The notes: generated by a model from the sequence alone, not told the origin. Shown: positions 2,407-55,578, counted from the stretch's first letter. The stretch is 64,000 nt of DNA from Thermincola carboxydiphila (GCA_016841325.1 JAENZJ010000004.1:62001-126000); one strand, 5' to 3'. Made by a program: numbers and translations.

Positions 2407-3651
2407 TTAATACGATCCTTCAGCCAGTTCTATTGCCCGGTAGCCGTAATCAGCGGCCTGGCCCAGGGAATCAAGGGCCTGTACCGGATTGTGGAATCCG
2501 CGGCTGTTTTCGGCAGCCACCCAGTCCCAATACCACTGTGCCTTAGAGACCATCTCCTGTGCCTCTTTAATCTTACTTTGGTCTGCCTCCTGTTTGGCAA
2601 GAGCGGTCTTAATGGCCTGGTGTGCCCTGACGATAACTTTTGATGTCCGCTGCTGGGTTTCCTGGGTGCGTTCCTGGGTATTTAACACCCTCTCCTTCAG
2701 CCACTCTGCGTCCTGGTCGTGGCAGGTCTGACACGATACCTCAATAGTTTTCAGGGGACTGGTCCACCAGTGGGAGGAATACTTTTTGCCATCCTCCCGC
2801 ATGTAAGGCATATGGCAGTCGGCACAACTAACACCTGCAGAACCATGGACACCGGTGCTCCAGGTCTCGAATTCAGGGTGCTGGACTTTTCTCATTGGGG
2901 CCTGCGAATCAGGGTGCTGCCAGTCAGAGAATGTGAAACTGTCGTAATACTTTTCTATCTGGTCAGGTTCCAGGCCTTTATCCCAGGGGTATGTGACCAC
3001 ACTGGTATTTTTTTCAAAGTAATATTCCACATGACACTGGGCACAGACGTAGGTCCTCATATCCTGTTTTGAGGCTTTCTTCACATCAATTCCCTGTTTC
3101 TGCATCGCCTCTGCAAATGCCGGCCTGGTTACCCTCAGGTCCATACTTGCCGGGTCATGGCAGTCAGAACACGCAATGGCATGTTTGACATCCTTTGCCA
3201 GGTCCTTAAGCGGTGTGGTATAATAAGCGGCCCCCAGGTTCTTCATCAGTTTGGGAACTGCAGGGCTTTTGCAGGTAAGACAGGAACCGGGGGTCTGGTC
3301 ACCGACCCGCTTGCTGCTGAGGAGGTCTTCCATGGCATAGGTATGGCCCCTGTCTTCATTGTAGTCCTTACTGAACCCGTACCCCTTAAAAAGTTCCCTG
3401 ATTTCAGGTTCAGTGATAAACTTAGATTCCTTTTCCGAACCACCGAACTCCGTTTTTGACTGTTGATTGTTCTTCAAATAGCTCTGGTACTCTATCGGAT
3501 AAATCTCCCCCCACACTGCCGGGTCCAGCTCATTTTCCGTAATACCTCCCTTTACTGCCGCCGGTTCACTGCTTCCCGAACAACCGGCCGCCAAAAAACT
3601 AATTACCAGGCCCATAAGTACCATTAGTATACCAAACCTTATTTTTTTCAT
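2407..3651 (-). CDS. nrfA: ammonia-forming cytochrome c nitrite reductase NrfA
   Basis: Reduces nitrite to ammonium with six electrons at the outer face of the membrane. The protein has five heme sites: CLTCK, the lysine-ligated catalytic heme unique to this family, then CSDCH, CAQCH, CADCH and CQTCH. An N-terminal helix ends in the lipobox LAAGC (about residues 18-22), so this NrfA is probably a lipoprotein held on the outer leaflet, as expected in a cell without an outer membrane. I chose the ATG at 3651 because AAGGATGGTG lies about 8 bases upstream; a TTG at 3675 would add eight residues. It follows nrfH, its quinol-oxidising partner, with a tandem repeat between them. Confidence 0.95.
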   Translation of the reverse strand: MKKIRFGILMVLMGLVISFLAAGCSGSSEPAAVKGGITENELDPAVWGEIYPIEYQSYLKNNQQSKTEFGGSEKESKFITEPEIRELFKGYGFSKDYNEDRGHTYAMEDLLSSKRVGDQTPGSCLTCKSPAVPKLMKNLGAAYYTTPLKDLAKDVKHAIACSDCHDPASMDLRVTRPAFAEAMQKQGIDVKKASKQDMRTYVCAQCHVEYYFEKNTSVVTYPWDKGLEPDQIEKYYDSFTFSDWQHPDSQAPMRKVQHPEFETWSTGVHGSAGVSCADCHMPYMREDGKKYSSHWWTSPLKTIEVSCQTCHDQDAEWLKERVLNTQERTQETQQRTSKVIVRAHQAIKTALAKQEADQSKIKEAQEMVSKAQWYWDWVAAENSRGFHNPVQALDSLGQAADYGYRAIELAEGSY

Positions 3652-3680
3652 CTTCCGGACACCATCCTTTCTCAAACCTT

Positions 3681-3768
3681 TTTATCTGTCAAGTCAAATG
3701 CCTCAATCTATCAGGTCAAATGCCTTTATCTGTCAGGTCAAATGCCTTTATCTGTCAGGTTAAATCTT
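3681..3768. repeat. four tandem 22-bp repeats between nrfH and nrfA
   Basis: Four head-to-tail copies of a 22-bp unit (TTTATCTGTCAGGTCAAATG followed by CC) occupy 3681-3702, 3703-3724, 3725-3746 and 3747-3768. Copies 2 and 3 are nearly identical; copies 1 and 4 differ at a few bases. Copy 4 contains the nrfH stop codon, so the array overlaps the end of the coding sequence. The repeats are too short and lack spacers, so this is not CRISPR. It may be a slippage product or a site affecting mRNA between nrfH and nrfA. Confidence 0.85.
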
Positions 3769-4194
3769 TTTATGGGCCACTTCGCGGTGGCAGTCCGTAC
3801 ACTGACGCCCCTCTCCCATCGGTGTGTTTTCCACAGTCGAGCTGTGGCAGCGGATGCAGTTTACCTGAATTATCTCCCTGCTTTCCTGTGTTGCTGAGAT
3901 AATGTCAGGCACCTCGCCCAATGTGGTTGCATAGAGGTCCCTGAGGCCCGACCTCGTCTTAAAGGAAGCCTTCTTCAGGTAGTCATCATGGGGCGCATGG
4001 CACTCCGTACACTTAAACTGCTTATGGTTTGAATGCTGCAGGGACAGGTAGGCATCCTCCATAACGTGGCAGTTAAGACAAAACCGGGCGTTGTCTGAAT
4101 AACTCAGGGCGCTGTCAGCCAGCAGAAAGAAAAAACTTGCCATCCCCACTGCCAGCCCGATAATAATCATAATTTTACGCCTGGGTGCTGTCAT
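3760..4194 (-). CDS. nrfH: NrfH-type tetraheme cytochrome c quinol dehydrogenase
   Basis: A 144-residue member of the NapC/NrfH family. It has one N-terminal membrane anchor (about residues 8-27) and four heme sites (CLNCH, CTECH, CIRCH, CTDCH). It takes electrons from menaquinol and hands them to NrfA. The length is typical for NrfH. A strong ribosome site (GGAGG) lies about 9 bases before the ATG. It is the first gene of the nrfHA-HPP operon, downstream of a two-component system that probably controls it. Confidence 0.93.
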   Translation of the reverse strand: MTAPRRKIMIIIGLAVGMASFFFLLADSALSYSDNARFCLNCHVMEDAYLSLQHSNHKQFKCTECHAPHDDYLKKASFKTRSGLRDLYATTLGEVPDIISATQESREIIQVNCIRCHSSTVENTPMGEGRQCTDCHREVAHKKI

Positions 4195-44191: not shown

Positions 44192-44243
44192 TTGACACAG
44201 GGCGGTCAGTTTTCATATAATTAATTTATCGAACACACGTTCG
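44192..44243 (+). promoter_or_regulatory. promoter with LexA box (ImuB-like gene)
   Basis: TTGACA (44192-44197), 18-bp spacer, TATAAT (44216-44221), then CGAACACACGTTCG (44230-44243), a perfect Gram-positive LexA inverted repeat placed over the start of transcription. Confidence 0.88.
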
Positions 44244-44282
44244 CAGATAGGCTAAACCTTTCTAATATGGAGGTTGGCGGAA

Positions 44283-45356
44283 ATGAGGATAATTGCACAC
44301 ATCTTCCTGCATGATTTCCGGGGCAGCGAATCTGAACTTGCCAGCAAATGCCTTAACCTGAGCCCAAGGGTGGAAACCCCCTGTGCTAATGAGGCCTTTA
44401 TTGACCTGGGCGGCAGAAAACCTCCCGGGGCAAGGCTAATCAGCGCTTTTGCCGGGACAGTCATCCCTTCCCTGGGGAGTTTTGCCACAGTCAGCCTGGC
44501 CCCCTGCCGCCTGCTGGCAAAGGCTTTGACAATGGCATATCTCTCTAACCCTCCAGGTCCGGGAAAATTGCCCGGAGGGACACTGACAAAGGCATATGAC
44601 AGATTCCGTCTCTGTGTCCTCAGACCGGAAAAAACCGGAGACTTTACCTCCGGGCTGCCGGTAGAATTTATGTGGCCATTGGAAGATAAGGTTATCCTGC
44701 GCCTGAAAACCCTGGGGCTGAAGACATTCGGCGATATCAGCGGGATTCCCCTGACAATGCTTTACAGCCCGTTTGGTTCCCTGGCCCCCCTGATTATGGA
44801 TTACAGCAGGGGTATTGATACCTCAAATGTGCCTTTTTTCAGCCCCCCCGACCGGATTACATATCACAGCCGCTGTGAGTGTACTGACATCACCGGGCTG
44901 GAAGAAACCATGAAACAGGCTGCAGTCCACCTCAGCCAAACCCTGCAGGAACGGGGAAAAAGCTACCGGGAACTGTCCCTGTCCATCTTCTCTGAAAATT
45001 TTTTCACCGAAAGCGTTACCTCTTCCTTTACCAGGGGGAAGTATGATATCCGTTCAGTATACCATGACTGTATGAATCTCCTGAAAAAACTGCAGATTGC
45101 AGGCCCGGTGACAGAGCTGTCCCTGGCAGCAGGACGGCTCACAAATTGTGTCCACAGCCAGATGTCTCTTTTTGAAGACCCCAAAACCCTTAACGGAAGG
45201 CATGCGGAACACCGCGAAAAAATAGCCAGGGTCTGTGAAAACCTGGCCTCCAGGTATTCACCCGGGATTGTCAGGATGGGCAGCGCCCTTCCGGTAAGCC
45301 GTAGGGAACAGATGCTGATGTTTGTTGACCCCCTGCGCAGTGGTGGCAAACCCTAA
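44283..45356 (+). CDS. ImuB-like Y-family DNA polymerase protein, probably inactive
   Basis: About 357 residues from ATG 44283 (GGAGG nine bases upstream). The middle and C-terminal parts are those of Y-family polymerases: a helix-hairpin-helix region (LKTLGLKTFGDISGIPLTML) and a little-finger domain (RCECTDITGLEETMKQ). The N-terminus is short: the first catalytic DMDAFFAS-type motif is replaced by IAHIFLHDF and only ANEAFIDLGG remains of the second. This is the ImuB pattern, a non-catalytic clamp adaptor for an error-prone DnaE. A clamp-binding motif QMSLF is present near residue 297. It is under a LexA promoter, and a DnaE with DUF6504 lies 7 kb downstream. Confidence 0.83.
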   Translation: MRIIAHIFLHDFRGSESELASKCLNLSPRVETPCANEAFIDLGGRKPPGARLISAFAGTVIPSLGSFATVSLAPCRLLAKALTMAYLSNPPGPGKLPGGTLTKAYDRFRLCVLRPEKTGDFTSGLPVEFMWPLEDKVILRLKTLGLKTFGDISGIPLTMLYSPFGSLAPLIMDYSRGIDTSNVPFFSPPDRITYHSRCECTDITGLEETMKQAAVHLSQTLQERGKSYRELSLSIFSENFFTESVTSSFTRGKYDIRSVYHDCMNLLKKLQIAGPVTELSLAAGRLTNCVHSQMSLFEDPKTLNGRHAEHREKIARVCENLASRYSPGIVRMGSALPVSRREQMLMFVDPLRSGGKP

Positions 45357-45395
45357 TCATCCATAACAGGCTATAGCATACACGGGAACGGACTT

Positions 45396-46757
45396 CTATA
45401 GGTTTTTCTTAAAAATATCACCATGACATTTCCGGCACAAATCATTACCCGCTCCCCTTAACATTTTATCATTCCCGCCCCGGCCATGGGGTTCATGGCA
45501 GTCAGCACAAGTAATTTTTTCCTGACGGATAGCTTCACCGTGAGATACATCCGGATTCATAAATTCCCCTGTATCATGACACAGGGTACATATTTGTTCC
45601 CTGGGGGCCGGCAGCAGTGATGTGTTGTCACTGTAATGTACGAGATGGCAGTTGAGACAGTCCCCGTCAGGCTTGTTGCCTCTTACTCTGCCGTGTTCAC
45701 TGCCTGCCATACTATCCACAACCTGGGCATGGCATTCGGCACAAACACTGTTCCCTTTTTGGTCCAACAGGTAAAGGTTCTCCGCACCGTGCCCCCGGTG
45801 GCATGATGTGCATGAAAAGCCGGATTCCCCTACCGGGTGATTGCTGGCTGCACTGTAAACAGGCCACATTTCAATATGGCATCCTGTACACCCATTAACC
45901 GGTAACAGGTATGGTAATACAGAACCATGGGGCTGGTGACATGACCGGCACATACCGGTTTTGGCAGGTTCATGAATAACAGGTTTCAGCATTTCTGCCT
46001 CAACTTCCGGATGGCATTGGAAACAGGCAAAGGGTACCGCTCTGTCCAACAGTGACTGGCCATTGGTGGCATGAGGGTCATGACACCGGGTACAGTTTCT
46101 TTCGGCAAATGGTCCGTGCTGATAAGGCATTGACATTTCAAGCACATGCTCTCTATGGCAGGTAGCACAAACCATAGCGGTATCCATCCGGGTCATCCCC
46201 TGATAATCAGAAGCATGGGGATCATGGCATGAGGTGCATTCACCCTGTTCAAAAGGCCGGTGCTGATTTGTCACCATACTCTTTTCGGACTGCAGTCTGT
46301 GACAGGAAGCACACAGGTCCTTTTTGCCAGCCCGTAGCAGTTTAGGTTCACTGCCGGCGTGGGGGTCGTGACAGTCTGTACAAAAGCCCTGCCGCCATGG
46401 TTCATGCTGTATGCCAGCCAGAGTTTCCTGTAAGCTGAGGTGACAGGTATTGCAGAGCTGCTGCCTGTCAGTTATCAATTCCATCTCAATATCAGGGTCC
46501 TGCAAATGCTGCTCATTAAAGAGGTGGCAGTCTGTACAGTACCAGTTTGCAAAAGGAAGGTGTACGGAACTTTGCTGGCCGGCGGCGGCAAACATATCAT
46601 TATGGCAGGTTTTGCACATCTCCTCTGTTTCTGCATTTTTCTTACTGTATTTTGAAAAAAGTTCATCCATATTCTGAGCAGGAATGCCCATTTTCAATGT
46701 CACTGCCATTGCCAGGGCAGCCAAAAGCATCATAAAAACCGCTGGTTTCCCGGTCAT
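45396..46757 (-). CDS. 17-heme c-type cytochrome
   Basis: A 453-residue protein with an N-terminal signal or anchor helix (about residues 7-24) and 17 CXXCH heme sites, beginning CKTCH and ending CRKCH. Many fall in doubled pairs (CTDCHDPHA, CTSCHDPHA, CTRCHDPHA), the doubled-CXXCH layout of NrfA/DmsE-like multiheme proteins. The repeating unit is about 45-50 residues. It overlaps the 38-heme gene by four bases (ATGA), so both are made from one message. The likely role is electron transport outside the membrane, possibly to extracellular acceptors. Confidence 0.9.
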   Translation of the reverse strand: MTGKPAVFMMLLAALAMAVTLKMGIPAQNMDELFSKYSKKNAETEEMCKTCHNDMFAAAGQQSSVHLPFANWYCTDCHLFNEQHLQDPDIEMELITDRQQLCNTCHLSLQETLAGIQHEPWRQGFCTDCHDPHAGSEPKLLRAGKKDLCASCHRLQSEKSMVTNQHRPFEQGECTSCHDPHASDYQGMTRMDTAMVCATCHREHVLEMSMPYQHGPFAERNCTRCHDPHATNGQSLLDRAVPFACFQCHPEVEAEMLKPVIHEPAKTGMCRSCHQPHGSVLPYLLPVNGCTGCHIEMWPVYSAASNHPVGESGFSCTSCHRGHGAENLYLLDQKGNSVCAECHAQVVDSMAGSEHGRVRGNKPDGDCLNCHLVHYSDNTSLLPAPREQICTLCHDTGEFMNPDVSHGEAIRQEKITCADCHEPHGRGGNDKMLRGAGNDLCRKCHGDIFKKNL

Positions 46758-49700
46758 AATGCCACCTCCTTCCCCTTATCCTGTTTCTGCCATGCCGGTT
46801 CCCGATGCACAGTATGGCATTCACGACACTGCACCTTTGTCAGGTCAAATTCCCAGTGTGCCTGGATGGCATTCCCGTGTTCAATATGACAGCTATTACA
46901 TTCGGTTCTCTTTTCCCTGATTACTGTTATTACAGTCCTGTTACTACTTTCATGACATGTGTTGCAGCCCCGGTCCTGCCTTTTATGTTCCTGGTCCAGA
47001 CTGACTTTGTGACATCCGGCACAGGCAAAGCCGGCATTACGGAACTCCGCTGTATGCTTGGGAGTTACGTCTCCGTGAATACTGTCATGGCAGGAAACAC
47101 ATGATGTATCATTATTTTTTACTGCCTTTCTGACATCATCCGGGGAATCGTCGTCATGGCAAGTTTTACAGGTCATCTCTTCCCCGTCACTGTTCACCCT
47201 GTCAACATGTTCGTCAGAAATGACGCGGCTGTGGCAGCCCGAGCAATTTACCGTCAGAATGTCAGGAAAAACGGATTCATGAACCTCAGTTATATCGTCA
47301 TGGACATTATGACAGGCATCACAGTACCGGTTTTGGGTATTTACGGCAAAATTGACTTTGGAAACATCTGTCTGGTGACAGATCCTGCACGAATAGCCGC
47401 GTTTCTGGTGTTCTCCATCAAGTTTTTTGGAATGACACCAACTGCAGTCAATTTCCTTGTTTTTTACAAAATCAGACTCATGACTGACATCCGGATGTAT
47501 TTGGTGACAGGCCGAGCATGCAGTATTGTTCGCTGCAACGGCATCAATGACGTCAGGTCTGCTGCTGTCGTGACAGGTTGCACAGTTTTCATTGTGATTT
47601 GCCGTCAATGAAGATGAATGGCACAGAGTACAGTTAGCTGACATATTCGTTACGTGGGCAGAGCTTACATCCTGGTGTACAGAGTGGCAGGAATCACATC
47701 CCGTGCTTCCGGCAGCCACAGACCGGGTTACCTGGTCTGTAGCCGAGCTATGGCAGAGGTTACAGTCACCCTTCCCCTGGTGTTCCGTGGTCAGTACCCC
47801 ACTGTGGCAGCCCGAACAGTCAAAGGTCTTGTTGTAGACAAAATCCGCTGTGGTATGAGCCGGTTCCACAGAAGACAGGGTATGAATACCGTGGCAGGCA
47901 TCACACTGCGTGTTACTGCTGTATATGGCTTCAGCCACGGTTGTGTTTGTACTGTCATGGCAGGCCGCACAATCCAGTCCCTGTGCCTGGTGTTCTATAT
48001 CAAGCATGTCATTGTGGCATCCGGAACAGTCCACTACCGGAGTGGTTACATAATTCGAAATATGGGCAGCAGCCACATCAGAGTGAATGTAGTGACACGA
48101 ATCACAGTCATTGCGACCGCCCAGTATAGAATCACTTATCTGCTGAACGGACGAAGCATGACAGAGGTTACAGTCTCCTGCAGGGCTATGTTCTGTTGTC
48201 AGAACATTGACATGACATCCCGAGCATTCAAAGGTCGGGGCATATACATAGTTCGCAGTAGTATGGGGCAATTCCACAGATTCAGGTGTATGTATACCAT
48301 GGCAGGCATCACAGTTGTTAATATTACCGGTTATCGCCCCATAAACTGTCTCATTGACAGTGTCATGGCAGGTGTTGCAGGTAAAGCCACGTCCTTCATG
48401 CTCTGTGTTTAAAACATCATCATGGCACTGGGCACAGTTTACCACAGGACTGATAACAAACCCGGAATCGTGAGCAGCCGTCACATCTGTGTGGAACTCA
48501 TGGCAGGCATTACAGTCGGTCTGTGATCCGCTGACAGCTGCCTTAACGTCAGCCCTGTTGCTGAGGTGGCAGGATACACAGTCAAGCGGTTGGCCGGTAA
48601 CAGACGAAATCCTTCCCCCGTGCTCTGTATCCAGCCTGTTTAAGTGGCACTGGCTGCAGTTAAAAAGTACCGGATCAGTATATATTGAGCTGTGAAGCAG
48701 GGCCATGTCGTGATAGTCTGCAGGATGGCACGCTGTACAGCCCGTATCTCCGGAATATACCGCATCCTGAACAACTGTATCCGTACTTCCGTGACAGACC
48801 TCACAGGTATAATTCCTGCCTGTGGCAGTCTTTGTCCTTATGTTTGCCGTATGTTCCTCATCAATATCAGGATTGTGACAGGTCCGGCAGTCATCCTCAA
48901 GTGCGGTGCCGTGAATAAGCCGGCTTGCCTCAAGTGTGTCGTGCGGGGTGTATGTATGGCAGGCACCGCAGGTTTTATCAGCCGCACTTATAGCGCCTCT
49001 GACACGTGCATCCGGGCTCAGGTGACAGGTGTTGCAGGAAACCTGGACCCGCTCACTGTCTGTCCTCCCAGGCCGTGCATGCTCTCTGGTAAGGGCCAGG
49101 GCATGGCAGGTATTGCAATTATTCCGGTCTGTCTTGTGAAGCTCAGGTATATCGTGATTATTTAGGGGCCTGGTGGGATTCACATATCCATTGTACCATC
49201 CTGTCAGCGGTGAACCGGGCTGGTGGCAGATGATGCAGTCCCATATTTCCCTGTTGGCAGTGACCCTGACAGGATATGTTGAACTATACCCCCGCAGCTG
49301 GTACGAAATCGACGGGCTGGACCCGTGGGGGGCCTCCGGCGTACCGTCCTCCAGACCATGGCACTGCACACAGTCAGCAGGATAGGTTATGTAGTTATGA
49401 CAGGCATCACAGTCGTTGGAGGAATGGGTGCCGTAGAAATTGATAGTATTATGCAGACTCTGGAATGGTATCCCGGAACCTTCGGCAATATCGTGACAGG
49501 CTGAACAGTTTACCATATTTGAGTCAGGCATTTCAGGATATGTACTGGTATTGAACATCCAGCTGATAGATGTGGTAAGCCCTCCCGGGTCGTAAGCACT
49601 CAGGCTCACCGTATGATAAGCTTCATCAGCCAGGGGTTCTGCCGGGACATGACTTACCAGTCCTGATGCAGAATCAAAACTGTGGGATACCTTCCGGCCG

Positions 49701-51826
49701 TTGACCTTCATTGTTATAGCATCCCGGTGAACGCCGTCATTATCAGTAACCTTTGCCGAAATAAGTGGAGTCAGGTCAGTAAGGTATGTTACCGGCTGCC
49801 ACCCGGATATTACCGGATAAGTCCTCCCTGTGAAGTTCCAGGCAGTCGTACCGGAATTGCCCAGAACGTCTTCACTCGTCAGAGAGAGGGTATGCGGGCC
49901 GTCCTTTATTGTTCCCTCATAAGTAACATATACTGTCTTCCTGCTGGTTATAATGTAACTGCCACAGCTGTCAGCCATCCCCTCATACCTGATTTGTGCC
50001 GGCAAAACCTGACCATCCAGTTTAAGGGTAACCTCCGGAGTAGAGCCTGTCCCTTTGATATCAGAGAAATCAGTCAGTTCTCCTCTAAATTTCAGCATAC
50101 CGTTGCTGATAATCATCCCGTCATAGAATTCACCTGTCAGTGCAGCCCCCGGCGGCCTGTTGTCTATAGAAAAAGTCCAGCTCGCGGTTCCGGTATTATA
50201 TACAGTATCAGCGGCAGAAACGTCTATAGTGTGGCTGCCATAGCCAAAATTGTGGTTGTATGTCACTGTTCCGGCAGCCGGGTCATAAATATGGGGTACC
50301 AGAGAACCATTATGATATACCACAATAGCTGCAGGGTCTATATTGTTATTGGCATCACTCACATTAACAGATGCAAATGCAGTGTCCCCAACCACAGAAT
50401 TGGGGGCAGGATTAAAGTTGGTGAACCCTGGCTTCGTCCCTACCGTAAAATTCCATGTCTCCTTCAGCATATTACCGACACTGTCGGCAATGGTGACTTC
50501 AGCAGTATGGACACCGTCATTCAGCCCGGATGTCCCAAAACTTACAGTACCTTCCTTATAGCTGTCAACTACATACCACGTCGCGCCGCAGGAGTCTGAT
50601 TCCCAGTGCCCCTTGTACTGAAAGGCTGCCGGCACTGGGGCCCCGTCTATTTTTGCCGTAACACTGTTTTTGTCAAGGTTGTTGGCACTATCCCTGACAT
50701 ACAGCGATACCGCAGGGCTGTTACCGTTCACCGTGCTGCCCTTATCCGGTTCCCAAACAACAGGAGCCGGTGGCAATGTATCTGTCTGGAAGCTCCACAT
50801 CCTGGCAGCGGTATTTCCGGCAGCATCACTGACCTTAAGGCTTACCTCATAGCTGCCGCTGGGGAAGCTTCCCTCATAGTACACTGTACCGGTGGGAGTA
50901 TAAACGGTATGTGCTACGGTGCTTCCATTAATTTGCAGGATTACGGAATCCCAGTCGATGGCATTGGTGTCGCTTACTGTTGCAGACACCCTGTCAATAA
51001 CCCCCAGGCTGCTGTTGTCTGCCGGGCTGAGACTGCTTATTTCAGGGGGAACCCCTACTGTAAATGACCAGGACTCTGTCATTAAGTTGCCCTTTACATC
51101 GGCAATACCTATTTCAACTGTATGAGTACCGTCTGCCAGCCCTGATGTCGCGAAACTGACAGTCCCTTCCCGGTAACTGTCCACCACCCAGACCGTTTCG
51201 GTCCAGCTGCTGCAGGAATCGCCATATGTAACGGTCTCCCAGTGGCCCTTAAACTTAAATTCAGGCGTTACCGGCTGACCATTCAGGACTGCACTTACTG
51301 AAGCCTCATCCAGGTTGTCAAACAGGTCTGTGACATAAAGAGAAACCGCAGGATTTGAAACAGTCACTGATGAATTCCTGCCCGGGCTCCAGCTTCCGGG
51401 GTTAGGTGCATTATCCACAGCGAAAGACCAGTTGGTGGATTGAAGACCCGCTGTATCATCATATACACTGGCCTGAACCGTATGTGATCCCTCTGAAAGG
51501 TCAGCTGGAGGTGTGTAACTGATATTGTAACTCCCCGGGGTGCTTCCCTCGGAAAGACCGGGGGTAACAGCTGCACCATCCAGTAACATACTGATATCCG
51601 TTTCACTGACTGTCCCTTCATATACTGAAATGCTCACACTTATATCAGGCCTTGTGTTTTCAATAATTTCACCATCTCCGGGCACCGGGGTGGTAAACAA
51701 TATACCGCTGGCGGCAGTTGCGGCAGCAACCCACCCTACAACTGCCAGGACAAATATTATAAGGCCCAGCATCAACCTTTTGGCTGGAGTAAGAGAGCTG
51801 TAGGCTTTTACAATTTTTTCGGTCAT
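46754..51826 (-). CDS. giant 38-heme c-type cytochrome with Ig-like modules
   Basis: About 1690 residues from the ATG at 51826 (ribosome site GAGGTGG). Residues 20-45 form one hydrophobic anchor. Residues about 50-770 are beta-rich Ig-like/cadherin-like modules, with one module type occurring twice (VSLYVTDLFDNLDEASV and VSLYVRDSANNLDKNSV, each followed by YKGHWE and SFATSGL/SFGTSGL). From about residue 775 to the end there are 38 CXXCH sites by my count, in a repeat that alternates CDACHGIHT-like and CSGCHxxVLTTEH-like units. The C-terminus is Lys-rich. The layout suggests an anchored stalk that carries a heme wire through the cell wall. Codon usage looks like the neighbours. Confidence 0.9.
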   Translation of the reverse strand: MTEKIVKAYSSLTPAKRLMLGLIIFVLAVVGWVAAATAASGILFTTPVPGDGEIIENTRPDISVSISVYEGTVSETDISMLLDGAAVTPGLSEGSTPGSYNISYTPPADLSEGSHTVQASVYDDTAGLQSTNWSFAVDNAPNPGSWSPGRNSSVTVSNPAVSLYVTDLFDNLDEASVSAVLNGQPVTPEFKFKGHWETVTYGDSCSSWTETVWVVDSYREGTVSFATSGLADGTHTVEIGIADVKGNLMTESWSFTVGVPPEISSLSPADNSSLGVIDRVSATVSDTNAIDWDSVILQINGSTVAHTVYTPTGTVYYEGSFPSGSYEVSLKVSDAAGNTAARMWSFQTDTLPPAPVVWEPDKGSTVNGNSPAVSLYVRDSANNLDKNSVTAKIDGAPVPAAFQYKGHWESDSCGATWYVVDSYKEGTVSFGTSGLNDGVHTAEVTIADSVGNMLKETWNFTVGTKPGFTNFNPAPNSVVGDTAFASVNVSDANNNIDPAAIVVYHNGSLVPHIYDPAAGTVTYNHNFGYGSHTIDVSAADTVYNTGTASWTFSIDNRPPGAALTGEFYDGMIISNGMLKFRGELTDFSDIKGTGSTPEVTLKLDGQVLPAQIRYEGMADSCGSYIITSRKTVYVTYEGTIKDGPHTLSLTSEDVLGNSGTTAWNFTGRTYPVISGWQPVTYLTDLTPLISAKVTDNDGVHRDAITMKVNGRKVSHSFDSASGLVSHVPAEPLADEAYHTVSLSAYDPGGLTTSISWMFNTSTYPEMPDSNMVNCSACHDIAEGSGIPFQSLHNTINFYGTHSSNDCDACHNYITYPADCVQCHGLEDGTPEAPHGSSPSISYQLRGYSSTYPVRVTANREIWDCIICHQPGSPLTGWYNGYVNPTRPLNNHDIPELHKTDRNNCNTCHALALTREHARPGRTDSERVQVSCNTCHLSPDARVRGAISAADKTCGACHTYTPHDTLEASRLIHGTALEDDCRTCHNPDIDEEHTANIRTKTATGRNYTCEVCHGSTDTVVQDAVYSGDTGCTACHPADYHDMALLHSSIYTDPVLFNCSQCHLNRLDTEHGGRISSVTGQPLDCVSCHLSNRADVKAAVSGSQTDCNACHEFHTDVTAAHDSGFVISPVVNCAQCHDDVLNTEHEGRGFTCNTCHDTVNETVYGAITGNINNCDACHGIHTPESVELPHTTANYVYAPTFECSGCHVNVLTTEHSPAGDCNLCHASSVQQISDSILGGRNDCDSCHYIHSDVAAAHISNYVTTPVVDCSGCHNDMLDIEHQAQGLDCAACHDSTNTTVAEAIYSSNTQCDACHGIHTLSSVEPAHTTADFVYNKTFDCSGCHSGVLTTEHQGKGDCNLCHSSATDQVTRSVAAGSTGCDSCHSVHQDVSSAHVTNMSANCTLCHSSSLTANHNENCATCHDSSRPDVIDAVAANNTACSACHQIHPDVSHESDFVKNKEIDCSWCHSKKLDGEHQKRGYSCRICHQTDVSKVNFAVNTQNRYCDACHNVHDDITEVHESVFPDILTVNCSGCHSRVISDEHVDRVNSDGEEMTCKTCHDDDSPDDVRKAVKNNDTSCVSCHDSIHGDVTPKHTAEFRNAGFACAGCHKVSLDQEHKRQDRGCNTCHESSNRTVITVIREKRTECNSCHIEHGNAIQAHWEFDLTKVQCRECHTVHREPAWQKQDKGKEVAL

Positions 51827-51892
51827 CTCTTCCACCTCTTTCTCCGGGCTGATTTGAGGAGCTTGTTTTAAATTGGTTGTTACTACTTTCTA

Positions 51893-52032
51893 TAATAATT
51901 ATCGTAAAATTTGTCCCTAAACTTGAGCCATCTAAGTTTAGCTGCCTTTTATAAAGACAAGAAAATTTTTCCTGCTACACCTTGTAATAATTATAGACCC
52001 CCCTGTCCCTGTGAACAACAAATAATAATTAT
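51893..52032 (-). promoter_or_regulatory. triple TAATAATTAT motif upstream of the cytochrome operon
   Basis: The 10-mer TAATAATTAT occurs exactly at 51893-51902, 51985-51994 and 52023-52032. A hairpin CTAAACTT/AAGTTTAG lies at about 51919-51943. The complement ATAATTATTA is found twice in the LysR-cytochrome intergenic region at 11263 and 11309. It may be an operator, but the sequence is AT-rich and chance is possible. The region 51827-52115 holds no gene I can support. Confidence 0.4.
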
Positions 52033-52115
52033 TTTTTAATAAACCCTGCCATACCCTGTTACCTGAAAAAAATGGAATTTGCCTGATGATTCTTTCATCA
52101 AATACAATATTATGA

Positions 52116-52140
52116 TATAATTCTTACGAACATACGTTCG
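52116..52140 (+). promoter_or_regulatory. -10 box and LexA box (DUF6504-dnaE operon)
   Basis: TATAAT (52116-52121) is followed by CGAACATACGTTCG (52127-52140), a perfect LexA inverted repeat in the same place, relative to the -10 box, as at 44230. The -35 is weak (TTTCAT near 52093). Confidence 0.85.
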
Positions 52141-52185
52141 CAATTGCGTCGAAACCAACAGGTAAAACAGCAAAGGATGATTACA

Positions 52186-52434
52186 TTGGTAAAACTGATT
52201 AACAAAAATATTGAAATAAGATACAGCACTAATGACACCCCCCTGGCTTTCCGGTTTAACGGCAAGTGGCTTCCGGTAAGTCAGGTTCTTGAAATATGGA
52301 AGGATACCGGCACATGGTGGGATGGGGAAAGTGAAAAAACCTTCTACAGGGTGAACACTCATGAAGGAAGCCTTTTTGAACTTTACAGGGACAATAATAG
52401 CCTGGCCTGGTTCCTGTACCGGGTTTATGATTAG
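52186..52434 (+). CDS. DUF6504 family protein, mutasome-associated
   Basis: About 82 residues from the TTG at 52186, with AAAGGATGA upstream. The pattern PLAFRFNGKWLPVSQVLEIW, WWDGESEKTFYRV and LYRVYD is that of DUF6504 proteins, which are found with ImuB-like polymerases and error-prone DnaE. The biochemical role is unknown. It is 30 bases upstream of dnaE under the same LexA-controlled promoter. Confidence 0.82.
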   Translation: MVKLINKNIEIRYSTNDTPLAFRFNGKWLPVSQVLEIWKDTGTWWDGESEKTFYRVNTHEGSLFELYRDNNSLAWFLYRVYD

Positions 52435-52464
52435 GAAGACTTTGATGATTAGGGAGGCCTCTTT

Positions 52465-55400
52465 ATGAGTTTTGTGCACCTTCATGTCCATTCCCCGTTT
52501 TCTTTTCTCGACGGGGCCGGCAGAATTGAAGAAATGGTCACCTCTGCAGTTACAGCAGGTATGCCGGCACTGGCTCTTACAGACCATAACAACCTCTGTG
52601 CCGCCGTTCTTTTCTCCGGCCTGGCCAAAAAGGCCGGGATCAAACCAATCACCGGTGTCGAAATAACACTGGGGGATGACAGCCACCTTACCCTCCTGGC
52701 CAAAAATCCCCATGGCTATACAAACCTGTGCCGTATCCTGAGCGCTGCCCACCTGGGGAATCCGCGCCAAACCCCGTGCACTTCTGTGGAAACCCTCAGG
52801 GCTTACAGCAGTGACCTGATAGCCCTGTCAGGATGCCGCCAGGGCAGGATTCCGCAGCTTATCCTGAAGGGGAATTACCGTCTGGCTGAGGAAGCAGCCA
52901 AAACATTTACTGATATTTTTGGCAGGGAAAACTTCTTTATCGAAATGCAGCATGATTTTCTTCCGGGAAGCCGGTTTCTCAACAACGCCCTGGATAACCT
53001 GGCCTCCCACCTGGGACTGAAGACAGCGGCCACCAACAATGTCCATTATGTTACCAAAGAACAATTTAAAATCCATGACCTGCTTACCTGTGTGCGGACC
53101 CTGACAAGGCTTGGGGAAATCCACCCCGAACGGCGCCTCAATGCGGAAAACTACCTGAAACCGCCTGCCGATATGGCCCGGATCTTTGGCGCCTATCCCC
53201 AGGCAGTGACAAATACCCTTGCCATTGCCGAAATGTGTATACCGGCCCTGGAAACAGGGAAGCGGCTGTTTCCCGCCTTTCCCGACATCCCCCCCGGGGA
53301 AACTGCTGCCGGTTACCTCAGGAAGCTTACTTACAAAGGTGCCGAGGAGCGCTATCGCTGCCTGCCCCGGCATGTGACCACACGCCTTGACCATGAACTC
53401 GACATCATCTGCCGCCTGGGGTTTGAGGATTATTTTCTTTTGGTCCGGGATGTCGCCAACTACGCCCGCAGGGAAAAAATCAGGTATGCCGGGCGGGGTT
53501 CAGCCGCAGATTCGGCTGTCGCATACTGCCTGTATATCACAGAGGTTGACTCCATAGCCCGGGGCCTCCTTTTTGAACGTTTCATGAGCCTGGAGCGCGC
53601 CCAGACACCTGATATTGACATAGATTTTGATTCCCGCCACCGGGACAGGGTAGCAGCATACCTCTATAAGAAATACGGCACTGACCGGGTGGCCACAGTC
53701 TGTACCTACAACACTTTCAGGGCTCGTTCCGCCTTCAGGGACCTGGCCAAAGCCATGGATTTCCCGGCCGCAGAGATTGACCGCCTGGCCAAAAAACTGC
53801 CATATATCCATGCCGACCAGATTGACCTGGCTGTAGATCGTTTTCCGGAACTCCGCGAAAGCGGAATTAATTCTCCCGGGTTCCGGGACCTCCTTGACTA
53901 CTGTGCGGCAGTCTCAGGATTTCCCCGGTTTATCGGCACCCACCTGGGGGGCATTGTTGTCAGCCGGCGCCCGTTATCTGAGGTAACACCCCTTCAGGAG
54001 GCTGCCAAGGGAATAGTTGTCACCCAGTATGACAAGGAATTTATAGAAGACCTGGGGCTGGTCAAGCTTGACCTGCTGTCCCTGAGGACCATGGCTGCAA
54101 TTGAAGACTCCACCCTGACTATCAGGGAAACAGACAGTAAATTTGACTACGAAAAAATTCCCCTGGAGGATAAGGCAACCTTTGATATGATTAACAGGGG
54201 GGAAACTGTCGGGGTCTTTCAGCTGGAGAGTCCAGCCCAGCGCGCCCTGCAAAGCCGGCTCGGGGCCTCAGAAATGGAGGACATTATTGCCAGTGTGGCC
54301 ATTATCAGGCCCGGACCCATCAAGGGCAATATGGTAGAACCCTTTATTGCCCGCCGCCAGGGAAAAGAACCGGTGACATACCTGCACCCTAAACTTGAAC
54401 CCATCCTGAAAAAAACCTATGGGGTTGTCCTGTTCCAGGAACAGGTCATTGAAATTGCCACAGCAATTGCCGGTTTTACCCCCGGGGAAGCCGACCGCCT
54501 GCGCCGCGTGATGACCCATGCCCGGTCCCACCGGGAAATGGCCGGCATCGGAGCGGAGTTTGTCAGAAAAGCCATTGCCAACGGGGTCAGCACAGAAGTC
54601 GCCGAAACCATCTTCTCATACATTACCGGATATGCCAGCTACGGTTTCTGTGAGGCCCATGCAGCGGCATTTGCCACCACTGCTTATAAAACAGCATATC
54701 TTATCAGGCATTATCCGGCCCATTTTTTTGCCTCAGTGCTCAGCCACCAGCCGATGGGATTTTATGACTCCAATACCCTGTGTGTGGAGGCACGCAGGAG
54801 AGGGGTGACCATCCTCCCCCCTGATATTAACCTCAGCCGGGAGTCTTTCACTGTTAATGCCGATACCATCCGCATTTCCCTGGGGCAGATAAAAGGGGTT
54901 AAGGAGAATTCCCTGAAAAAGATCCTGGCAGCCAGGGAAAAGGGCCCCTTCAGGTCCTTTGACGATTTTCTGAAACGTGTTTCCATAGGCCGGGATGTCC
55001 TGGAGAACCTAATCCGCTGTGGGGCATTTGACAGCCTGCATCATAACCGGAAGCAGCTGTTATGGGCCATTCCGGCGGCAGGCAGCAAAGGGAATACCAG
55101 TGCGCTGTCCTTCGGCGGGGAAGGTCCCCTTACCGGAGAATCTTCCCTCACAGATAATACGGTGACCCTTCCCCCTGTTCCGGACTTTACGCCACAGGAG
55201 AAATTCAACATGGAGTATGAGATACTCGGCATAGATGTAACCTGCCATTATATGAGTCATTGGCGCAGCAGGCTGGAACGCCGGGGATTTCTGAACAGCA
55301 TGAACCTTGCGGCAGCCGGTAACGGCAGCCAGGTCAGGGTCGCCGGCCTGCCTGTCCGCCCGCACCGCCCCCCTACCAGAACAGGCAAAATAGCCGCCTT

Positions 55401-55578
55401 TTTTTCACTGGAGGACGAATTCGGCCTGATTGACATAACTGTTTTCGAAAAAACCTACCAGGAGTTCGGGAACCTCCTTTTTACCAGGCCTGTCCCTCCG
55501 CTCCAGGTTTGGGGTACATTACAGCACAGGGGTAACGGTTTCTCCATAATCGCCCGTAAAATATTCCGCCTGCAGTAA
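52465..55578 (+). CDS. dnaE2: DNA polymerase III alpha subunit, DnaE2/ImuC type
   Basis: A 1037-residue C-family polymerase. Order: PHP domain (FVHLHVHSPFSFLDGAG, ALTDHNNL), palm with PDIDIDFDSRHR (catalytic aspartates near residue 384), fingers (AYKTAYLIRHYPAHFFASVL), tandem HhH and a C-terminal OB fold (VRVAGLPVRP, FFSLEDEFGLIDITVF). It is shorter than the replicative DnaE (about 1150) and matches the length of error-prone DnaE2/ImuC. The LexA box, the DUF6504 neighbour and the ImuB-like gene upstream make an SOS mutagenesis role likely. Ribosome site GGGAGG. Confidence 0.92.
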   Translation: MSFVHLHVHSPFSFLDGAGRIEEMVTSAVTAGMPALALTDHNNLCAAVLFSGLAKKAGIKPITGVEITLGDDSHLTLLAKNPHGYTNLCRILSAAHLGNPRQTPCTSVETLRAYSSDLIALSGCRQGRIPQLILKGNYRLAEEAAKTFTDIFGRENFFIEMQHDFLPGSRFLNNALDNLASHLGLKTAATNNVHYVTKEQFKIHDLLTCVRTLTRLGEIHPERRLNAENYLKPPADMARIFGAYPQAVTNTLAIAEMCIPALETGKRLFPAFPDIPPGETAAGYLRKLTYKGAEERYRCLPRHVTTRLDHELDIICRLGFEDYFLLVRDVANYARREKIRYAGRGSAADSAVAYCLYITEVDSIARGLLFERFMSLERAQTPDIDIDFDSRHRDRVAAYLYKKYGTDRVATVCTYNTFRARSAFRDLAKAMDFPAAEIDRLAKKLPYIHADQIDLAVDRFPELRESGINSPGFRDLLDYCAAVSGFPRFIGTHLGGIVVSRRPLSEVTPLQEAAKGIVVTQYDKEFIEDLGLVKLDLLSLRTMAAIEDSTLTIRETDSKFDYEKIPLEDKATFDMINRGETVGVFQLESPAQRALQSRLGASEMEDIIASVAIIRPGPIKGNMVEPFIARRQGKEPVTYLHPKLEPILKKTYGVVLFQEQVIEIATAIAGFTPGEADRLRRVMTHARSHREMAGIGAEFVRKAIANGVSTEVAETIFSYITGYASYGFCEAHAAAFATTAYKTAYLIRHYPAHFFASVLSHQPMGFYDSNTLCVEARRRGVTILPPDINLSRESFTVNADTIRISLGQIKGVKENSLKKILAAREKGPFRSFDDFLKRVSIGRDVLENLIRCGAFDSLHHNRKQLLWAIPAAGSKGNTSALSFGGEGPLTGESSLTDNTVTLPPVPDFTPQEKFNMEYEILGIDVTCHYMSHWRSRLERRGFLNSMNLAAAGNGSQVRVAGLPVRPHRPPTRTGKIAAFFSLEDEFGLIDITVFEKTYQEFGNLLFTRPVPPLQVWGTLQHRGNGFSIIARKIFRLQ

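Follow-up and report, generated by a model that had tools for sequence, protein, structure and literature searches.

The thick wall of Gram-positive bacteria presents extracellular electron transfer with a crossing that is still open, and the published Thermincola model consists of four modest cytochromes. OcwA, ImdcA, PdcA, and CwcA carry 6-10 hemes, and no immunoglobulin-like (Ig-like) stalk has been described for them (PMC7911101, PMC6703420). Giant cytochromes are known, with a count of 58 hemes for T. ferriacetica and counts of 69-86 for others (PMC7096707, PMC9012536). The gene described here lies in a 64,000-nucleotide stretch of Thermincola carboxydiphila DNA (GCA_016841325.1 JAENZJ010000004.1:62001-126000), referred to as the window. 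It encodes a 38-heme cytochrome in which a long Ig-like stalk separates an N-terminal hydrophobic segment from an array built mainly of tandem triheme units. The 38-heme protein probably serves extracellular electron transfer in a Thermincola-like monoderm, as an electron carrier that is secreted and either sits at the cell surface or is associated with the wall.

Heme motifs and triheme units

The 1690-residue protein contains exactly 38 CXXCH motifs, the number given in the original prediction, while 2000 shuffles of the same protein average 0.2 motifs with a maximum of 3. Together with the N-terminal hydrophobic segment and a Pfam Cytochrome_C7 match of 122 bits, these motifs mark it as a multiheme c-type cytochrome with predicted heme attachment. 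Its only non-motif cysteines, residues 208, 416, and 624, all fall in the stalk, leaving the heme region without stray cysteines. The ATG at 51826 is favored over a GTG at 51835 because a ribosome-binding site, AGAGGTGG, lies 5′ of the ATG and the resulting N-terminus matches the MTEK of relatives. Residue numbering throughout is from the alternative GTG. Promoter and terminator scans gave signals no higher than in shuffles.

Hemes 5-37 occupy eleven tandem triheme units of 62-77 residues with the pattern CxxCH...(E)H...CxxCH...CxxCH..H...H. The units share 26-53% identity, and twelve columns are invariant, comprising nine heme-motif residues and three extra histidines. The extra histidines follow motifs a, b, and c in a 1/0/2 register in 11 of 11 units, compared with at most 4 units in 20,000 random placements of the same histidines, a null that leaves out the common ancestry of the units. 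Because this register is kept despite strong divergence, selection on the ligands is argued for. The units contain 33 hemes and as many candidate distal histidines, and the whole heme region has 39 non-motif histidines for its 38 hemes. With three extra histidines per unit, full bis-histidine ligation of the unit hemes is therefore possible, judging from this inventory of ligands.

Within the array, a hexaheme block is duplicated as U04-U05 and U06-U07, whose matching units are 52-53% identical in protein; their DNA is 75% identical over a 254-base alignment. The original prediction had described a repeated pair of units, and this block shows that such a pair exists inside the triheme array, but the basic repeat is the triheme unit. 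Growth by duplication, which it had also proposed, is supported by both the tandem units and the copied block. It had further held that the assignment would fail if many motifs lacked a heme-compatible context, and the match of distal histidines to unit hemes provides that context.

A PDB sequence search with the 38-heme protein returned NrfB as the only match (8e-4), and a search with the unit profile gave weak, scattered matches, including 3ov0 at E 0.17. Neither search found a close solved relative. An AlphaFold2 model of the last Ig domain with hemes 1-10 scored 57.3, was confident in the Ig part only, and did not yield the geometry of the array.

The Ig-like stalk

The N-terminal hydrophobic segment would serve as a signal peptide or an uncleaved membrane anchor. 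It is followed by 728 residues without hemes, in which Pfam recognizes Big_13 and Big_7 domains. AlphaFold2 models the last Ig domain as a beta sandwich with a predicted local distance difference test score (pLDDT) mostly of 82-93. In Foldseek it matches Ig/cadherin-like domains from two adhesins, SiiE and SraP, and from mycobacterial L,D-transpeptidases (LdtMt2). These results agree with the roughly 720 Ig/cadherin-like residues originally predicted to precede the hemes. The number of stalk domains, about seven, was read off the repeats by eye, and a BLAST comparison of the stalk with itself returned only the trivial self-match. An Ig-like domain is about 4 nm long, so seven could reach roughly 28 nm.

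Each of the three stalk cysteines is the lone cysteine of its Ig domain (codons at 51212-51214, 50588-50590, and 49964-49966), and relatives have similarly placed DSC/DAC cysteines. Elsewhere, L040:7942-13431 encodes an 1830-residue protein without hemes that contains Calx-beta and Big_13 domains, and its Big_13 part is related to the stalk.

Table 1. Features of the cytochrome locus in window coordinates.
Feature	Position	Strand	Details
38-heme Ig-stalked cytochrome gene	46754..51826	minus	1690 aa (ATG) or 1693 aa (GTG, 51835)
Hydrophobic segment, sole one at N-terminus	51710..51787	minus	about residues 17-42; hydropathy
Stalk of about seven Ig-like domains	49526..51709	minus	residues 43-770; Pfam, AlphaFold2, Foldseek
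Hemes 1-4, N-terminal cluster	49118..49525	minus	common to 10-heme relatives; alignment A3
Eleven triheme units, hemes 5-37	46829..49117	minus	residues 907-1669
Duplicated hexaheme block	47633..48436	minus	U04-U05 (48029-48436) and U06-U07 (47633-48028)
Heme 38 and C-terminus	46757..46828	minus	partial twelfth unit, one extra His
17-heme DmsE/MtrA-type cytochrome	45396..46757	minus	453 aa, 34 Cys, 34 His; 4-bp overlap (ATGA)
Segment absent from matching site in two same-genus genomes	45351..52160		between imuB and DUF6504-dnaE
LexA/SOS-like box CGAACATACGTTCG	52127..52140		within insert, just upstream of DUF6504-dnaE

The family of Ig-stalked cytochromes

The 38-heme protein belongs to a family that combines an Ig stalk with a conserved core of hemes 1-10. 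Its membership is evident from alignment A3, from pairwise matches to paralogues, and from a match of 1.2e-126 to the family profile A4, of which the protein is itself a row. Most members have 10 hemes, although 7-, 8-, 9-, 13-, 14-, and 19-heme members also occur, and the heme cysteines and histidines are invariant in the family alignment. The family is found in the window organism's own family and in scattered Bacillota. At 1e-20 its profile matches 17 of 398 Bacillota genomes surveyed, with some of these matches being unstalked proteins that have only part of the core. The organism's own genome, for which the list of cytochromes is partial, encodes several stalked paralogues that carry 7-10 hemes and whose stalks measure roughly 250-900 residues.

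Decaheme members, such as L038 (853 residues), L045 in G003, and L010/L046 from a metagenome-assembled genome labelled Thermincola ferriacetica, likewise contain the hydrophobic segment, Ig stalk, hemes 1-4, and triheme units, and are about 40-54% identical across the aligned core. The closest cores in the tree are those of L038, an own-genome paralogue, and L045, at forks that are not strongly supported. Decahemes have two triheme units, whereas 13-heme proteins (L120, L058, L070) have three and a 19-heme protein (G005, L124) has five, representing intermediate expansions of a like architecture. With eleven, the 38-heme protein has nine more than its 10-heme relatives, and its 28-heme extension appears in no other protein seen in this sample of genomes.

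Most relatives carry a C-terminal domain after the last heme, which measures about 100-110 residues in the decahemes and is retained in the 13-heme stalked proteins. The 38-heme protein lacks it and is thus a variant rather than a typical family member. Pfam gives no known family for this domain (L037:9828-10220 and equivalents, with ends like GYRIEIWYK), which is also present in some unstalked 13- and 14-heme cytochromes.

The 17-heme partner and the insertion

Directly downstream is a gene for a 17-heme cytochrome whose start lies inside the stop of the 38-heme gene. It has its own Shine-Dalgarno sequence, AAGGAGGTGG, and this arrangement predicts that the two genes are a translationally coupled pair. 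The 17-heme protein passes the DmsE model TIGR03508 (221.8 bits against a cut-off of 192.2) and matches PDB 6r2q chain A, MtrA of the Mtr complex, at 1.2e-13. It shares about 37% identity with a 17-heme protein encoded in a conserved set of cytochrome genes similar to the ImdcA-CwcA region.

The pair is flanked by imuB and DUF6504-dnaE. In two genomes of the same genus (G001 and G002), the bases corresponding to window positions 45350 and 52161 are joined, and imuB and DUF6504-dnaE are contiguous. Because this junction is continuous in both, the pair appears to be an insertion of about 6.8 kb, with precise loss in both relatives being less likely. The guanine-cytosine content of the insert (0.491) equals that of its flanks (0.488 and 0.498).

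The insert splits an error-prone polymerase cassette (imuB, 44230-45356; DUF6504-dnaE, 52127-55578). One SOS-like box lies at 44230, before imuB, and a second, at 52127, comes with the insert before DUF6504-dnaE. In G003, a genome of another genus, a 10-heme stalked cytochrome (L052:5167-7927) occupies the same imuB-DUF6504 junction in the same orientation. This protein was rejected as an orthologue since it falls in another clade of the tree, in which several forks are weakly supported. The junction is possibly a hot spot for insertion.

The host cell

In the genome, which is 99% complete, T. potens OcwA (PDB 6i5b) has a homologue at 1.8e-234. Cytochrome c assembly proteins (PF01578) and many SLH domains are also encoded, and no Omp85 was found. 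On these grounds the host is read as a monoderm relative of Thermincola, which upholds the premise of a Gram-positive cell in the original prediction. A cluster of 10-, 12-, 17-, and 6-heme cytochromes resembles the ImdcA-CwcA region, and the host is probably a metal- or electrode-respiring bacterium. At 2407-4194, the window also encodes a cytochrome c552 (NrfA-like) and a NapC/NirT-type small subunit, an apparent ammonifying nitrite reductase.

Proposed function and alternatives

As a carrier at the cell surface, the 38-heme protein would be held at or through the wall by its Ig stalk and would display a long chain of bis-histidine hemes, most of them in the eleven triheme blocks. The original prediction of a stalk that spans the wall and places a heme wire at the surface is kept here as a possibility. 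Other multiheme proteins, with the co-translated 17-heme cytochrome as the likeliest, would pass electrons on from the menaquinone side. The chain would then deliver them to minerals, to an electrode, or to a terminal reductase, for which the OcwA homologue is one candidate. Since the stalk has no hemes and is non-conducting, the 38-heme protein alone cannot bring electrons through the wall, and a second carrier is required. The co-translated MtrA-type protein is the best candidate for this role, and CwcA/OcwA-type proteins may also be named.

Several results weigh against this carrier role. The stalk sets the hemes apart from the membrane yet contains none itself, and a Pfam scan of the 38-heme protein shows neither a wall-binding nor a sorting domain. 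The matching site lacks the pair in two same-genus species, which makes the pair accessory. AlphaFold2 did not resolve the heme array geometry in a model of four triheme units (pLDDT 60.5, predicted template modelling score 0.28), and a Foldseek search with this low-confidence model found no match. Continuous heme packing is left as an inference because the model of the units is of low confidence and the Foldseek search was empty. A more elaborate version is put forward only tentatively. In it, a single-chain, all-bis-histidine wire of eleven self-contained triheme blocks on an insulating stalk would work with the co-translated 17-heme MtrA-type wire. Using two proteins and no porin, they would parallel the Mtr conduit in taking electrons across a Gram-positive wall, and the length of the wire would be set by unit duplication and tuned by species.

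Instead of conducting over distance, the 38 hemes could act as a reservoir at the wall that stores many electrons once acceptors are exhausted. A capacitor role has been discussed for GSU1996, which shares the tandem triheme principle, and for the 27-heme GSU2210 (PMC10138318), and the present protein has many hemes in one chain and no catalytic-looking unit heme, each having a possible distal histidine. Such storage is nevertheless unlikely here, as it would not need a long display stalk, and GSU1996 is periplasmic with one His-Met heme per domain (PMC10138318) where each unit of the 38-heme protein has three extra histidines. It is also quite improbable that the stalk mainly binds a solid surface, making the protein a mineral or cell adhesin whose heme head is the terminal reductase. 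The stalk lies between membrane and hemes rather than at the free end, and the Pfam scan shows no ligand-binding domain, even though the stalk domain matches the adhesin Ig domains of SiiE and SraP and a Carboxydocella adhesin-cytochrome fusion has been proposed as a terminal Fe(III) reductase (PMC6085454).

The inserted pair might instead be of little use, either unexpressed or incompletely hemylated. In keeping with this idea, the insertion is species-specific and relatives have an empty site, and a review doubts full heme loading of very large predicted cytochromes (PMC7096707). However, none of the 38 motifs and none of the unit histidines has been lost despite the divergence of the units, and the strong Shine-Dalgarno sequence and the coupled partner, with its full set of cysteines and histidines, make such disuse very hard to credit.

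Comparison with known systems

The Geobacter protein GSU1996 likewise chains triheme domains on one polypeptide (PMC10138318), as the eleven tandem units do here, but has no described Ig stalk. The units may be homologous to the c7/GSU1996 domains, given the Pfam Cytochrome_C7 match, but in the PDB search 3ov0 reaches only the E-value given above. Among the surface decahemes MtrC, MtrF, and OmcA, a likeness is seen in part of the 38-heme array, which passes Pfam PF22113 (62.9 against 30 bits), while the score with the MtrC/OmcA model TIGR03507 lies far under its cut-off (19.6 against 209.3 bits). Those proteins carry 10 hemes at an outer membrane, whereas the present one carries 38 in a host without an outer membrane. 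The host is the same kind of organism as that of the OcwA, ImdcA, PdcA, and CwcA pathway.

Giant surface-layer (S-layer) cytochromes of anaerobic methanotrophic archaea (PMC9012536) similarly combine a giant heme count with non-heme envelope modules in one chain, but the 38-heme protein lacks an S-layer domain and instead has an Ig stalk at its N-terminal end. In Carboxydocella CFE_2239, a Firmicute multiheme cytochrome is also joined to an adhesin-like part, although it has 17 hemes, and its heme part is N-terminal to the adhesin-like part (PMC6085454). A record heme count was rejected for the 38-heme protein, given the published counts of 58 and 69-86 (PMC7096707, PMC9012536), an open reading frame of 3056 residues with 42 CXXCH motifs in its own genome (L132:4427-13594), and one with at least 71 in G002 (L122:1-7461). 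The combination of a multiheme cytochrome with Ig-like domains is not described in the open-access literature searched, which did not include, for example, Carlson 2012.

The Ig-stalked family, with several paralogues per genome, is a candidate display system. The modular, ligand-complete triheme unit, alone or in defined numbers, would make the length dependence of heme-chain conduction testable. Giant cytochromes, triheme chains, and adhesin fusions are already known, and the stalked, block-built form described here is an extreme variant.
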